The notes beneath the pieces are model-generated. The model did not search any database. It was given only the letters and a program-made list of their open reading frames with translations, and was not told where the DNA came from. Position numbers and translations under genes: made by a program. DNA of 64,000 nucleotides, taken from the NCBI RefSeq assembly GCF_000833025.1, contig NZ_CP010817.1, positions 2,232,001-2,296,000 of the forward strand. Direction: 5' to 3'. This DNA is from Myroides profundi (GTDB lineage Bacteria > Bacteroidota > Bacteroidia > Flavobacteriales > Flavobacteriaceae). Shown in pieces: positions 17,941 through 31,337 of the stretch. Positions within the stretch are counted from its first letter, which is position 1. Each line of letters opens with the position of its first letter.

Positions 17941-18075
17941 TGCCAGATTGGTAGAAATAAAACTTACTAAGGAAGTAAACAACATTTTTTCCATTTCTGG
18001 CTTATCGATTGCAGCACCTTGCTTGTTGTTGCAGGTTGCTATTCTACTTATTAAGTAGAATTCTTGATAATTGAG
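17941..18075 (-). ncRNA. SAM-I/IV-type riboswitch upstream of NhaC-family transporter
   Basis: On the minus strand: P1 is TTATC (18066-18070) with GATAA (18002-18006). P2 is a nine-pair hairpin ATTCTACTT / AAGTAGAAT. The conserved AGCAACC precedes P3, CCTGC / GCAAGG with an eight-base loop AACAACAA, then GGTGCTGCAATC and the closing GATAAG. Those are the SAM-I-superfamily core sequences. P4 is missing, but the P3 loop pairs with TGTTGTT at 17978-17984 downstream of P1, seven continuous pairs, the pseudoknot that marks SAM-IV and SAM-I/IV variants. Further down GCCAGA / TCTGGC can form an expression-platform stem. Controls the transporter at 16612-17913. Confidence 0.82.
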
Positions 18076-24660: not shown

Positions 24661-25317
24661 TTATTTTTCTGTAACAAAAGTACGGTAATATACTAAGTCT
24701 GCTATACTTAACACCATCATTTTATGTTCTTTTGCAAACTCTACTACCTCTGGCAATCTAGCCATTGTACCATCGTCATTCATTAATTCACATAATACAG
24801 CTTGAGGAGGTAGACCGGCTAACTTCATTAAGTCAATCGCTCCTTCTGTATGTCCATTGCGCTCTAATACACCTCCATTTTTTGCTCTTAATGGAAATAT
24901 ATGTCCTGGACGTGCTAGATCAGCTGGTTTAGCATTCTTATCACTTGCTGCTCTTACCGTAGTTAATCGGTCTGCGGCAGATAATCCTGTGGTTACCCCT
25001 TCTGCAGCTTCTATGGTTACTGTGAAAGGTGTTTGGAATCTAGAACTATTTTCTGTCACCATATAAGGAAGCTCTAGTTCGTCTGCTTTATCATTCGTTA
25101 GACATAAACACACTACTCCACTACAATAGCGAATCATCATCGCCATATCCTGTTCTGACATTAAATGTGCTGAGAAGATGATATCTCCTTCATTTTCTCT
25201 ATCTTGATCATCTAATAAAAGAACACCTTTACCGCTCTTTAAAAAACTCAACGCTTGATTAACTCTTTCTTGACTATCCCAACCAAATTGGTTAAGGGCA
25301 TTTTCTAATGTATTCAT
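24661..25317 (-). CDS. ribB: 3,4-dihydroxy-2-butanone-4-phosphate synthase (stand-alone RibB)
   Basis: Converts ribulose 5-phosphate to 3,4-dihydroxy-2-butanone 4-phosphate for riboflavin. 218 aa, same length as E. coli RibB, with [11 protein letters not shown] (metal-binding acids) near residue 36, RPGHIFPL near 138 and [16 protein letters not shown] near 153. Most Bacteroidota use a RibBA fusion, so this separate enzyme is probably an extra, regulated copy. It lies three bases after the DUF2798 gene and six before the Crp/Fnr gene. The resemblance to proteobacterial RibB may reflect transfer (inference). Confidence 0.93.
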
Positions 25318-25568: not shown

Positions 25569-25612
25569 CAAAGTTCTTCTTCCTAACCCCGAAAAACATT
25601 GACGTAAGTCAA
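25569..25612 (-). promoter_or_regulatory. Fnr-type promoter of DUF2798-ribB-crp operon
   Basis: Palindrome TTGACGTAAGTCAA (25599-25612), then exactly 22 bases, then -7 element GAACTTTG (25569-25576). With transcription starting five bases after the -7 element (25564) the palindrome centre lies at -41.5, the class II activator position of FNR/CRP. Confidence 0.75.
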
Positions 25613-25648
25613 AAAATAAACACACTCAAAAAACCTTAGTACACACTC

Positions 25649-25826
25649 AAAAAAATAAAGCCACCGCCTAAGCAGTGGCTTTATTACACAACCTATACTT
25701 GTGAGAGTCTAAATCACATAATATGTATAATCTTATATCAGGTTGGCGGTATCTTTTTTGAACTATAATTATTAGCTTTTCCGACTTTATCTCTTGAGAG
25801 ACACTAATAATTTTTGATCTTTTGGT
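25649..25826 (-). ncRNA. Candidate small RNA from an Fnr-type promoter
   Basis: About 178 nt between a predicted start at 25826 and the U-run after a strong terminator (GCCACTGC / GCGGTGGC, 25660-25679). No plausible start codon with a frame of useful length lies inside. The 5' half folds into a stem of nine perfect pairs (AATTATTAG/CTAATAATT, arms 25767-25775 and 25804-25812) enclosing TCTC/GAGA; CAACCT (25689-25694) and AGGTTG (25740-25745) form a second stem; the terminator is the third. Expression by the Crp/Fnr protein encoded at 24091 is inferred from the promoter. Alternative: an evolutionary leftover of a duplicated promoter-terminator unit. Confidence 0.55.
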
Positions 25827-25830
25827 ATTG

Positions 25831-25874
25831 CAAATATCATCCCTGCTCAATCCAAAAACATTGACATAAGTCAA
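25831..25874 (-). promoter_or_regulatory. Fnr-type promoter of the candidate small RNA
   Basis: Palindrome TTGACATAAGTCAA (25861-25874), 22 bases, -7 element GATATTTG (25831-25838). Same geometry as the promoters at 25569 and 27742. Confidence 0.7.
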
Positions 25875-25892
25875 TAAAAACGCTTTATAATA

Positions 25893-25926
25893 AATAAAGC
25901 CACCGCAAATGCAGTGGCTCTATTAC
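25893..25926 (-). terminator. Terminator of the ABC transporter gene
   Basis: GCCACTGC / GCGGTGGC hairpin, close in sequence to the terminator at 25654-25685. The flanking GGTTGTGTAATA is also shared, so the two are parts of a tandem duplication of about 240 bp. Confidence 0.8.
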
Positions 25927-25952
25927 ACAACCTAATTTATAAATGTCTATTT

Positions 25953-27737
25953 TTAATCTTGATGTAGTGTTTGTGATATTTTCTCTAGGTTCAAGCTATT
26001 TGCCATAGCAGAGAAGATCTCATAATAGGTATTCTTATTCTCATACAGCTCCTCATGCTTACCATTCTCCACTACTCTTCCTTTTTCCATCACTACGATA
26101 TCGTGAGCATCTATAATCTGAGAAATACTATGCGATACGATAATCACTGTTCTATTCTCCTTAATCGCGTCTAAACTTTTCTTGATCTGCTCAGTAGCGA
26201 TAGCATCTAAGCTAGCTGTAGGCTCATCTAAGAAAATAATAGCAGGATCTTTTAAGAACAACCTCGCTATAGCGATACGCTGTTGTTGGCCCCCTGATAG
26301 CAGACGTGCATCAGATTCATACCCTTGAGGAAGATCGATGATCTGCTCGTGAATATACGCCTTCTGCGCTGCTAATTCTACTTCTTCTATCGTAGCATGA
26401 GGATTCCCATAACGTATATTCTCTGCTATACTACCTTGGAATATGTGATTCTTCTGTAGTACAAGCCCTATGTGCTTACGAAGTTCTTTAGTATCGTATT
26501 CTCTTAGATCTACACCATCTAACAATATTTGTCCAGAAGTAGGCGCATAGAACTTATCTAATAAATTAATCACTGTACTCTTACCTGCTCCACTCAGCCC
26601 TACAAGAGCAGTCGTCTGATTAGGTTCTATCGTCATAGACACTTCTTTTAAAGCGCTTGTCCCATTAGGATAATCAAAAGAAACATCCTTAATCTCTATC
26701 TTTCCTTTAATTTCGGTAGGAACATAAGTACCTGTTGTTTCTACTTCATGATCTGCATTAATAATCTCAAAGAAAGTCTCTGAGTAAATCATCGCATCGT
26801 TCACATCATCATAGATACGGTGAAGCTGTCTAATAGGAGCTGTAACGTTATTAAATAATAGAACGTGAAACATAATAGCTCCTACAGTCATCTCTCCTTT
26901 TAGAACAAAGTAAGCTGTCATCAGAATAATCACCACAAGTCCGAACTGCTCAATAAACCCTTTTACAGCATCAAAGACAAAACTCATTCGTCTCGTCTGT
27001 AACTGATTCTCTGTCATATCGTATTGAATCTCTTCATGCTTCTCCGCTTCTAAAGGTTCTCTCACAAAAGACTTAATGACAGTAATAGAATTAATCAGAG
27101 AGATAATACCATTGTTTTTATTCTCTCTATAGCTACGCATTTTTCTTCTAAAACCTTTTAATTTGCTAGCCTGAAGCTGACTCACATAGAAGTATAAAGG
27201 AATCATCGCTGTACTAACTATACCCACATACACATTAGCTGTATATATAAATATCAACGCTACTATAGCATTAGCAAACAAAGGCAAGATATCGATAAAA
27301 AAGTTCTGAATCAATCTAGTAATACTCCCTACTCCCTGATCTATACGAGTCTGTAGCTTACCACTATCATTCTCATCAGAGGTATAGAAAGCCATTCGAT
27401 AGGTCAATATCTTCGTAACCACTAACTGTGAAATATCTCTAGAAACATAAATACGCAGTTTCTCCCCAAAAAACTTCTGACCAAACTGTATAAAGGCATT
27501 TAAAATCTCTTTTACAATAAGAACAACAGTACTAAAAACAAGCATCTTATACCCCCAAGTTAAATCCTTCACTCCACTTACTACATCATTTAACGTATCT
27601 ACCATAGAGCGAATAATAAGTGCATTTACCTGCACTGCGAAGGACCCAACGGCTGTCAATATCAATGTCCCTATGATTAACCTCTTATAAGGCATTACAA
27701 AAGGCTTTATCTGTTTAAGTATTTTTATCAAATTCAT
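25953..27737 (-). CDS. ABC exporter, fused permease and ATPase
   Basis: 594-aa half-transporter of the MsbA/MDR type. Residues about 1-315 hold six transmembrane helices; the ATPase follows from about 335, with Walker A GLSGAGKST, signature LLSGGQQQR, Walker B AIIFLDEPTASLD and the switch His in VIIVSHS. It should form a homodimer or pair with another half; no partner gene is adjacent. Substrate unknown (lipid or drug are typical). The promoter carries an Fnr-type palindrome, so it is probably co-regulated with the ribB operon. The ATG lies four bases from the -7 element, so the mRNA is probably leaderless. Confidence 0.92.
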   Translation of the reverse strand: MNLIKILKQIKPFVMPYKRLIIGTLILTAVGSFAVQVNALIIRSMVDTLNDVVSGVKDLTWGYKMLVFSTVVLIVKEILNAFIQFGQKFFGEKLRIYVSRDISQLVVTKILTYRMAFYTSDENDSGKLQTRIDQGVGSITRLIQNFFIDILPLFANAIVALIFIYTANVYVGIVSTAMIPLYFYVSQLQASKLKGFRRKMRSYRENKNNGIISLINSITVIKSFVREPLEAEKHEEIQYDMTENQLQTRRMSFVFDAVKGFIEQFGLVVIILMTAYFVLKGEMTVGAIMFHVLLFNNVTAPIRQLHRIYDDVNDAMIYSETFFEIINADHEVETTGTYVPTEIKGKIEIKDVSFDYPNGTSALKEVSMTIEPNQTTALVGLSGAGKSTVINLLDKFYAPTSGQILLDGVDLREYDTKELRKHIGLVLQKNHIFQGSIAENIRYGNPHATIEEVELAAQKAYIHEQIIDLPQGYESDARLLSGGQQQRIAIARLFLKDPAIIFLDEPTASLDAIATEQIKKSLDAIKENRTVIIVSHSISQIIDAHDIVVMEKGRVVENGKHEELYENKNTYYEIFSAMANSLNLEKISQTLHQD

Positions 27738-27741
27738 ACTG

Positions 27742-27785
27742 CAAAGATAGAATTGTTCTAAATAAAAAGCTTTGATTTATGTCAA
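27742..27785 (-). promoter_or_regulatory. Fnr-type promoter of the ABC exporter
   Basis: Palindrome TTGACATAAATCAA (27772-27785 on the minus strand), 22 bases, then a perfect -7 element TATCTTTG (27742-27749) and the ATG four bases later. If transcription begins at the A of ATG (27737), the palindrome centre is at -41.5. Confidence 0.78.
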
Positions 27786-27914: not shown

Positions 27915-28562
27915 ATGAGAAAAATTACTTTATCATTAGTTGCAGCCCTAGCAATAGGTTTTTCTGCAAATGCACAAACTCCAGATGTAAAAATCGGAGC
28001 TAAAGGAGGATTAAATATTTCAAACTTAACAAATATAGATAATACATCGTCTCTTACTAGTTTTCACATTGGTGCAGTAGCTGAAATCTTCGTTAATGAG
28101 AGATTCTCTATCCAACCGGAGTTACTTTATTCTGCTCAAGGAACAAGCGTTGATATAGATGAAATGACTTACGTAGGTCTTAATGTAGCACGCCTAGAAA
28201 TGGATACTGAGATGAGAGTTAATTATATCAATGTACCTATTATGGCTAAATACTACCTATGGGAAGGTCTAAACGTACAAGTAGGTCCACAATTCGGATT
28301 TTTAACTTCTGCTAAAGCACATATAAATAAAATGAGAGTTGACGGAGTAAAAATTGATGTACCTAGTAGTTCTAATAATGAATCTATAAAAGACCAATTT
28401 AAATCTTTTGACTTTGGTGTAAACTTTGGAGCTGGATATGAATTACCTGTAGGTGTATTTTTTGATGCTCGTTACAATATAGGTATTTCTAAAGTAAACA
28501 AAGAAGGTAGTGATGCTGCTAGAAACGGAGTATTCCAATTATCTGTAGGATATAAATTCTAA
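27915..28562 (+). CDS. Porin-family outer-membrane beta-barrel protein, copy 1
   Basis: 215 aa with signal peptide (LSLVAALAIGFSANAQ, cut near residue 20) and an OMP_b-brl_2 barrel: VKIGAKGGLNISNL, FHIGAVAEIFVNERFSIQPE, INVPIMAKYYL, YELPVGVFFDARYNIGIS and a terminal GYKF. Such eight-strand barrels are common surface proteins of Bacteroidota without known cargo. It is followed by a close paralogue, and the first 28 codons of the two are nearly identical. Confidence 0.88.
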   Translation: MRKITLSLVAALAIGFSANAQTPDVKIGAKGGLNISNLTNIDNTSSLTSFHIGAVAEIFVNERFSIQPELLYSAQGTSVDIDEMTYVGLNVARLEMDTEMRVNYINVPIMAKYYLWEGLNVQVGPQFGFLTSAKAHINKMRVDGVKIDVPSSSNNESIKDQFKSFDFGVNFGAGYELPVGVFFDARYNIGISKVNKEGSDAARNGVFQLSVGYKF

Positions 28563-28736: not shown

Positions 28737-29327
28737 ATGAAAAAAATTACTTTATCATTAATTGCAGCCCTAGCAATAGGTTTTTCTGCAAATGCACAAA
28801 CTCCAGATGTAAAAATCGGAATAAAAGGAGGTTTTAACATCTCTAATATTAGTAACTTCGAAGACTCTTCATCACGTCCAGCTTTTCACATTGGAGCCGT
28901 TGCTGAAATTTTTATCAATGAAAAATTTTCTATTCAACCAGAATTACTATATTCAGCACAAGGAGCTAGATATGATTATACTGAAACTATAATAAGTAAT
29001 TACTATTACTCTTCTAAAACTAAAACAGAAACATTAAAACTAGATTATATTACAATACCTGTAATTGCCAAATACTATATCGTAAAGGGACTTAATGTAC
29101 AGGCAGGCCCTCAATTTGCATTCAATGTAACTGCAAAAAACCATATGGAAGATATTAAAGAGAATGTTAAGTCTTTTGAGTTTGGATTAGGACTTGGTGC
29201 TGGATACGAATTATCTAACGGAATATTCTTTGATACTAGATATAATGTAGGTCTTAGTAAAGTTAACAAATATGGAGATTCTTCAAGAAATGGGGTACTT
29301 CAATTATCTATAGGATATAAATTCTAA
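28737..29327 (+). CDS. Porin-family outer-membrane beta-barrel protein, copy 2
   Basis: 196-aa tandem paralogue of the gene before it. Same signal peptide, same strand pattern and ending, with changes concentrated in the loops (about residues 35-45 and 75-100). The first 28 codons differ from copy 1 by two bases, both changing the amino acid. The 3' ends and untranslated hairpins are also alike, pointing to duplication with later exchange between copies. Confidence 0.88.
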   Translation: MKKITLSLIAALAIGFSANAQTPDVKIGIKGGFNISNISNFEDSSSRPAFHIGAVAEIFINEKFSIQPELLYSAQGARYDYTETIISNYYYSSKTKTETLKLDYITIPVIAKYYIVKGLNVQAGPQFAFNVTAKNHMEDIKENVKSFEFGLGLGAGYELSNGIFFDTRYNVGLSKVNKYGDSSRNGVLQLSIGYKF

Positions 29328-30711: not shown

Positions 30712-30737
30712 TAATTTTGTCTTTCAATATAAAAAAA

Positions 30738-31337
30738 ATGACAATGAAAAAAATCATGCAATCACTTACTTGTGCTCTTATGTTAGTTGGGGCAACTGCA
30801 TTTGCACAAACACCTTCTCCAATTCACTTTGGTATTAAAGCTGGTGCTAACTTCACAAATATCTCTACTGACTTAAAAGATTACAGTAGTAAAGCATCTA
30901 CAGGATTTGGTGTTGGAGCAATGACTAGAATCGATATCAAAAAAACATATATCCAAGCAGAATTATTATATGCTGAGAAAAAGTCTAAATTCGAAAACAA
31001 CTTAGGAGAAAGTACTACTAGTACTTCTAAACAACTTGAGATCCCTGTAGTTATCGGACACAAATTCTTAAAATTACCAATGGTAAGCCTTAGAGGATTT
31101 GCAGGTGGTGTGTATACAAATACTATCGATGACAAATTATCTGGAAGTAAAATCAACGATGCAGTACAATTCAAAAACTTTGACAAGAACAATATCGGAT
31201 ACCGTTTAGGTGTTGGTGTTGATGTATTGACATTCACTCTTGACGTTTCTTATGATGGAAGCTTCAGCAAAACAAACAAAGAAATCGGAGCAAAACCTAA
31301 TACTTGGATGGTATCATTAGGATACTTCTTCCTATAG
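30738..31337 (+). CDS. Porin-family outer-membrane beta-barrel protein
   Basis: About 199 aa with signal peptide (SLTCALMLVGATAFAQ). Barrel pattern IHFGIKAGANFTNIS, TRIDIKKTYIQAELLYA, YRLGVGVDVLTFTLDVSYDG and a final aromatic ending SLGYFFL. Start is the ATG at 30738 or, equally possible, 30744; both follow a consensus -7 element TAATTTTG at 30712-30719. Related in fold to the pair at 27915-29327 but not a close copy. Confidence 0.86.
   Translation: MTMKKIMQSLTCALMLVGATAFAQTPSPIHFGIKAGANFTNISTDLKDYSSKASTGFGVGAMTRIDIKKTYIQAELLYAEKKSKFENNLGESTTSTSKQLEIPVVIGHKFLKLPMVSLRGFAGGVYTNTIDDKLSGSKINDAVQFKNFDKNNIGYRLGVGVDVLTFTLDVSYDGSFSKTNKEIGAKPNTWMVSLGYFFL

Follow-up and report, generated by a model that had tools for sequence, protein, structure and literature searches.

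The 64,000-nucleotide (nt) stretch of Myroides profundi DNA analysed here, hereafter the window (contig NZ_CP010817.1, positions 2,232,001 to 2,296,000), carries on its minus strand three palindromic operators, each followed at a distance of exactly 22 nt by a -7 promoter element, and next to them the gene of a short regulator of the Crp/Fnr family. We regard it as quite probable that this neighbouring regulator activates the three promoters from operators centred at -41.5. A dimer would bind TTGAY-N4-RTCAA centred 41.5 bp before the start, cover the place of the -33 element and activate sigma-A promoters, and would switch on its own operon (DUF2798, ribB, crp), an ABC exporter and a short transcript. 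The operators, their spacing, their conservation with the regulator and the covariation of recognition helix and half-site emerge from the comparison of genomes; from these we infer binding, activation, autogenous control of the DUF2798-ribB-crp operon and the start sites. With somewhat less assurance, we also think it likely that Bacteroidota possess many short wingless Crp paralogs, mostly local class II activators, which share one geometry, with the operator centred 29 or 30 bp upstream of the -7 element, and whose operator and nearby target are predictable from six residues of the helix.

Operators and promoters in the window

An earlier note on this DNA, made from its letters alone, had described three palindromes with an identical gap to a -7 element on the minus strand, and all three were recovered at the same coordinates with exactly 22 nt in each case (Table 1). 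With transcription predicted to start on the fifth base past the -7 element, all three centres fall at -41.5, the class II position, as that note had supposed. This assumption agrees with the location of the -7 box at -12 to -5 in Flavobacterium psychrophilum, as given in an excerpt of PMC9723704; the Bacteroidota sigma-A promoter is described in excerpts of PMC9723704 and PMC7366714 as a -33/-7 promoter with the consensus TAnnTTTG. The palindrome had been written TTGAC-RTAA-RTCAA, but relative to transcription the asymmetric RTAAR core is reversed at site 3 as compared with sites 1 and 2, and the form common to all is TTGAC-N4-RTCAA. Sites 1 and 2 lie within a local duplicate of a terminator and operator block (89% identity over 46 nt and 81% over 31 nt), and for that reason cannot count as fully independent; the duplicated hairpin and operator together span 25650-25934. 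Sites 1 and 2 have a weakened -7 element, with G in place of the first T; that of site 3 is not weakened.

In the 4,064,534-base (4.06 Mb) contig the sequence TTGACRTAARTCAA has three exact copies, all of them at the window sites, while the reversed control has none. A genome-wide scan of the kind proposed in the earlier note, here for TTGAYNNNNRTCAA followed by N22 and NANNTTTG, gave four places at zero mismatches, three being the window sites; the fourth (C1:943104-943147) precedes an SRPBCC-type gene (Pfam Polyketide_cyc2). This fourth site, at position 2035 of locus L200 (G000:C1:941100-947000), has a short Crp gene (PETLSR, L035) about 2.4 kb upstream. With up to one mismatch the composite pattern matches the genome 10 times vs 4 in the control. 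On its own the loose form TTGAYNNNNRTCAA is common, at 59 places vs 24 in the control, and copies of TTGACRTAARTCAA with up to three mismatches occur in the window at chance level (34 observed, 36.7 expected). Specificity therefore comes from the full palindrome together with the spacing. A scan of 396 genomes of the class with the core YTARR (24 matches in 18 genomes, 1 in the control) was set aside as evidence, the core being so strict that it misses the window's own sites.

Conservation of the operator with the regulator

A scan of named genomes yielded 123 loci with a relative of the regulator, of which the best 80 were used. The palindrome with a -7 element at 22 or 23 nt heads the regulator operon in 73 of the 80, although the genes between operator and regulator vary (MFS-SIP in 21, DUF2798 in 18, DUF2798-RibB in 7, RibB-SIP in 6, plus smaller groups); the partners across loci are DUF2798, RibB, a flavin-type SIP protein, MFS, an antiporter and the ABC exporter. 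The 80 loci contain 111 TTGAYNNNNRTCAA sites, 4 of them inside open reading frames (ORFs) longer than 100 amino acids (aa); among the 107 others, 99 have a -7 element (5 or 6 of 6 consensus bases) exactly at 22 nt, vs 7 at the next best offset and at most 11 on the other strand. The -7 element begins with G at 41 of the 73 operon heads, with C at 30 and with T at 2, and we read these promoters as weakened because T is so rare at this position. AGTTT or TGTTT follows 51 of the 73 sites. Regulators only 54-56% identical to that of M. profundi (L359 and L360) have the same operator before ribB-crp; the sequence of L361 is truncated on the upstream side. In one locus (L046) the regulator was not called as a single intact frame. 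The link between regulator and operator is thus well supported by comparative evidence, and the neighbouring regulator gene very likely encodes the protein that reads the three operators.

Several observations weigh against this reading. The loci were collected with six peptide patterns, one of which (YLNISQET) overlaps the recognition helix, so that the uniformity of the helix in the 80 loci is partly selected. Five Chryseobacterium loci (L047, L051, L061, L063 and L069) have a regulator with the same QETLSR helix and no such operator nearby; a search of two of these five genomes left one composite site, ahead of an antiporter-like gene. In L066 and L096 the palindrome is present with a poor or shifted -7 element, and a weak -7 is not general, since the -7 element does begin with T in the exporter promoters and, before ribB, in L359 and L360. 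Finally, cross-talk is possible because four other paralogs of M. profundi (L026, L031, L034 and L035) have the helix E-T-[LV]-S-R, which has the same E-x-x-S-R pattern.

A locus labelled Glaciecola amylolytica (L065), a name that we take to lie outside Bacteroidota, contains the regulator together with a DUF2798 gene and the operator, spaced at 22 nt; it may reflect a transfer or a mislabelled record.

The regulator

The regulator possesses an N-terminal domain of the cyclic-nucleotide-binding type (PF00027, 41.8 bits, cut-off 27.5), and its recognition helix QETLSR stops four residues before the end of the protein. The Pfam scan gave no match to a helix-turn-helix (HTH) family; nonetheless, the AlphaFold model (predicted local distance difference test score 89) has C-terminal helices at 167-174 and 178-186 and matches FNR and CRP chains in fold, aligned through residue 187, and by this model the protein has a C-terminal HTH. 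It would lack a C-terminal wing, since only four residues follow the recognition motif. QETLSR is identical in all 28 aligned orthologs, among which C54 is the sole invariant cysteine. In FNR oxygen sensors four conserved cysteines hold a [4Fe-4S] cluster; these are absent here, and oxygen sensing of the FNR type was dropped. The label 'Fnr-type' of the earlier note thus holds for the reading of DNA, where E-x-x-S-R goes with TTGA, and fails for sensing. C54 as a group-specific sensor was likewise dropped, with a cysteine at that place in 21 of 117 paralogs by a simple pattern that left 18 not readable. The NCBIfam equivalog model for CRP gave 35.1 bits, far under its cut-off of 266. The regulator itself is rare within the family: 4 of 299 genomes, M. 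profundi counted, hold it at E 1e-60 or better.

Promoter geometry and helix code among paralogs

The paralog sample combined the 20 PF00027 matches of M. profundi with part of the 264, among the matches listed, in eight other genomes (30 loci taken automatically and 100 hand-chosen regions). It yielded 117 short Crp proteins with a readable helix in 116 loci, and 116 of the 117 end at most 15 residues past the helix motif. PF00027 matches number 20 to 44 per genome in the nine genomes counted, some of them not short Crps. When perfect 5+5 palindromes were sought in the intergenic DNA of this sample before any NANNTTTG, with no motif specified, the 41 offsets together gave 110, among them 24 at the 22-nt and 9 at the 23-nt offset (two of the matches are the window's own sites). 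Repeated over 154,662 bp of intergenic DNA from the 80 regulator loci, after masking of the known motif, the scan gave 124, of which 5 lay at 22 nt and 1 at 23 nt. Short Crp paralogs of Bacteroidota often adjoin a palindrome 22 or 23 nt before a -7 element.

The scan found no site for 87 of the 117 paralogs; where one is present, the half-site follows the helix. The xETxSR helices (n=19) go with TTGA in 9 cases and no other half-site (10 without site), RETxSR (n=17) with GTGA in 4 and no other (13 without site), and helices with E whose last residue is neither R nor K (n=7) with TTAA in 3 and no other. E helices ending in K (n=8) have TTGA in 4 and TTAA in 2, and the other E helices (n=9) TTGA in one (QEFLSR) and CTAA in one. 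Among the 57 helices without E there is neither TTGA nor GTGA (AGGA 5, TTGC 5, ATAA 4, TTAA, TCAA and TAGA 1 each). The half-site is not set by a final K, which occurs with TTAA in PEFISK and PEFLSK and with TTGA in HEFLSK, QEFLSK and AEFMSK. When proteins sharing at least 45% identity are merged, the half-site rule is obeyed by 12 of 12 clusters of the three rule classes. The permutation result for these classes (0 of 100000) is descriptive, because the classes were partly chosen after the sites had been seen and two xETxSR regulators of one locus (L325) share a site. The distal loci described below and the further loci that follow are cleaner in this respect.

Searches with a RETLSR and a PEYLSE query extended the series to relatives of regulators already seen, with no intergenic filter and with possible overlap of species with the first sample. 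The RETLSR query gave 21 further loci, 20 of which read RETLSR; 6 of these 20 have a site, always GTGA at 23 nt, and 14 have none. Of 22 further loci found with PEYLSE (its own copy excluded), 12 read PEY[LV]SE, and all 12 have TTAA at 22 nt; among the rest, AEFMSK has TTGA in 2 of 2 and PEFLSK has TTAA in 1 of 4, while one PEYLSK and three PQFLSR are without site. Comparison thus points to the pairings xETxSR-TTGA, RETLSR-GTGA and PEY[LV]SE-TTAA. The earlier note had taken from FNR that E-x-x-S-R reads TTGA, and covariation among the paralogs (the xETxSR sample, 21 distal loci described below and the further loci) bears out this association.

The operators of eleven loci (L023, L254, L286, L273, L265, L022, L239, L233, L279, L295 and L322) have the core ACATTTGT or ACAAATGT with varying outer bases; ten of the eleven regulators lack the helix Glu, the exception being L322 (PESLSR). 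In M. profundi the PETVSR paralog L031 has TTGATCTAGATCAA directly 3' of its gene, ahead of an SDR-type gene, with no -7 element at 22 or 23 nt.

Composite sites away from the regulator

The composite pattern was sought in 42 of the 80 genomes, picked for spread, and matched 92 times, in 41 of them, vs 0 control matches; manual sorting placed 55 near the regulator and 37 distally. From the latter, 33 matches in 32 loci were examined: 31 are intergenic, 12-83 nt before an ORF on the same strand, and 2 lie inside ORFs. The scanned targets carry the Pfam names YceI, DinB_2, Polyketide_cyc2, Multi_Drug_Res, Cyclase, DUF418 and BAAT_C, while antiporter-like and ribB-like targets were named solely from the likeness of their first residues. 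Another short Crp, in every case with the helix E[TF][LF]SR, adjoins 21 of the 32 loci, on account of which we assign most of the distal sites examined to sister regulators. On these grounds we mostly dropped the idea that one dispersed regulon includes YceI, DinB, SRPBCC, SMR and cyclase genes, and the 'local regulon' of the earlier note, which fits this genome, becomes one case of a layout common to many sister regulators. One of the 21, in Flavobacterium sp. HSC-32F16 (L195), closely resembles the window's regulator (profile E 3.5e-94) and is a second copy of it, beside a ribB-like gene with the same operator.

Alternative explanations

It is unlikely, in our view, that another E-x-x-S-R paralog of M. 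profundi reads the operators wholly or partly, with the neighbour not the (only) reader. Besides the four paralogs with a shared helix, of which L026 and L034 adjoin TTGA sites of their own, the distal TTGA loci of other genomes would suit this idea, 21 of 32 adjoining sister regulators; but the sites beside L026 and L034 are spaced at 23 nt and have flanks other than the AGTTT or TGTTT of the regulator's own operon heads, and the operator stays with the regulator ortholog despite changing partner genes. We similarly doubt that the regulator represses, blocking polymerase over the -33 region until a ligand releases it. Autorepression is common among local regulators, the operator is predicted to overlie the -33 element, and the full TA is present in the -7 element of the exporter promoters and of the L359 and L360 promoters; yet the fixed spacing (99/107) and the near absence of the first T at operon heads (2/73) fit a promoter that needs help, and both speak against a repressor because a repressor would need neither. 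It is scarcely credible that the three matches lack regulatory meaning, whether as products of chance or as mere copies of one duplicated block. The duplication that holds sites 1 and 2, the commonness of the loose motif and the chance level of near matches would allow it, but not the conservation across genera, the composite matches in 42 genomes with an empty control, the helix covariation and the different context of site 3.

Of the three targets named in the earlier note, an operator of the neighbouring regulator is supported at its own operon (73/80 loci) and at the ABC exporter, which carries it in all eight genomes examined, all of them regulator-bearing (seven exact copies and one mismatched; 22- or 23-nt spacing). 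For the small RNA, the third target, the case is weak, and it is improbable that promoter 2 makes a real regulatory RNA of the regulon, an analogue of the small RNA FnrS. Operator, -7 element and hairpin do bracket a transcript of about 170 nt in which the sole ATG (by eye) runs straight into a stop, and the unit recurs in M. odoratimimus (L039) and M. marinus (L040). However, its body differs between these two close species, L041-L044 and L046 show no middle operator, and the duplicated terminator-plus-operator block accounts for the transcript. The transcript has no Rfam match at the gathering score.

As to physiological function, we offer only as a tentative suggestion that the system serves in detoxification and efflux linked to flavins, and that the regulator senses a small molecule or electrophile.

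Relation to known systems

In E. coli, FNR reads TTGA-N6-TCAA half-sites through E-x-x-S-R, and CRP reads GTGA through RETxxR. The system described here resembles E. coli FNR at class II promoters in half-sites, E-x-x-S-R and predicted centre at -41.5, and its regulator model has the overall fold of A. fischeri FNR; it differs in lacking the four cluster cysteines and, as predicted, the C-terminal wing, in the Bacteroidota sigma-A -7 box and in its local rather than global scope. The fold is also shared with E. coli CRP, whose RETxxR/GTGA pairing recurs in the RETLSR paralogs, although the regulator scores far below the CRP model. A cyclic nucleotide binding regulatory protein of Cytophaga hutchinsonii (PDB 3dn7; fold comparison over the first 146 residues) has the helix PEYLSE, of a TTAA-type class. 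With Bacteroidota sigma-A promoters in general those of the window share the -7 element and its position, whereas the first T is mostly G or C (71/73 operon heads) and the operator would replace the -33 element.

No description of this regulon, of the helix code or of targets of such regulators was found in a literature search that left subscription papers mostly uncovered and could not handle the slashed term 'Crp/Fnr'; the main text of a 2025 family-wide study (PMC12531629) contains neither 'Bacteroid-' nor 'Flavobacteri-'. A fixed geometry and a helix code would make operators, start sites and targets of these abundant regulators predictable and testable, and would offer Bacteroidota a general model of activator-dependent sigma-A promoters. 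They also provide a natural series for protein-DNA recognition, in which the CRP (GTGA) and FNR (TTGA) readings recur in one protein group beside TTAA, AGGA, ATAA and TTGC.

Neighbouring genes and other features

The start codon of the DUF2798 gene was chosen to fit its relatives, which are mostly 72-76 aa long; the alternative ORF of 92 aa would begin inside operator 1. The ABC exporter scores under the cut-off of the named MsbA models. Its predicted transcription start site (TSS) coincides with the A of its ATG, and we predict a leaderless mRNA for this reason; of 8 relatives, 7 have the same four-base gap between -7 element and start, and L357 has a gap of five. The exporter operator is kept in L352, where the regulator has other neighbour genes, and in L353, whose exporter lies on a different contig from the regulator.

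Table 1. Features of the operator region, in window coordinates
Feature	Position	Strand	Remarks
Regulator, short Crp/Fnr family, 187 aa	24091..24654	-	PF00027, ortholog alignment, AlphaFold model
ribB, 3,4-dihydroxy-2-butanone-4-phosphate synthase	24661..25317	-	PF00926; TIGR00506 above cut-off
DUF2798 small protein, 73 aa	25321..25542	-	PF11391
-7 element of promoter 1	25569..25576	-	GAACTTTG; predicted TSS 25564
Operator 1	25599..25612	-	reads TTGACTTACGTCAA on minus strand; heads DUF2798-ribB-crp
Terminator-like hairpin closing the middle transcript	25654..25685	-	inverted repeat and fold
Putative short noncoding transcript from promoter 2, about 170 nt	25654..25826	-	body poorly conserved
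-7 element of promoter 2	25831..25838	-	GATATTTG; predicted TSS 25826
Operator 2	25861..25874	-	reads TTGACTTATGTCAA on minus strand; precedes short terminated transcript
Terminator-like hairpin 3' of ABC exporter	25893..25924	-	duplicate of hairpin 25654-25685
ABC exporter, permease-ATPase fusion, MsbA-like	25953..27737	-	PF00664 and PF00005
-7 element of promoter 3	27742..27749	-	TATCTTTG; predicted TSS 27737
Operator 3	27772..27785	-	reads TTGACATAAATCAA on minus strand; precedes ABC exporter

Beside the exporter, similar secreted proteins of the outer-membrane type are encoded serially on the plus strand (27915-28562, 28737-29327 and 30717-31337); the gene at 27915-28562 is divergent from the exporter, and operator 3 lies in the intergenic region between them. 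Elsewhere in the window, a SAM-I/IV riboswitch was detected at 17975-18075 on the minus strand (59.1 bits vs a gathering score of 41.1).
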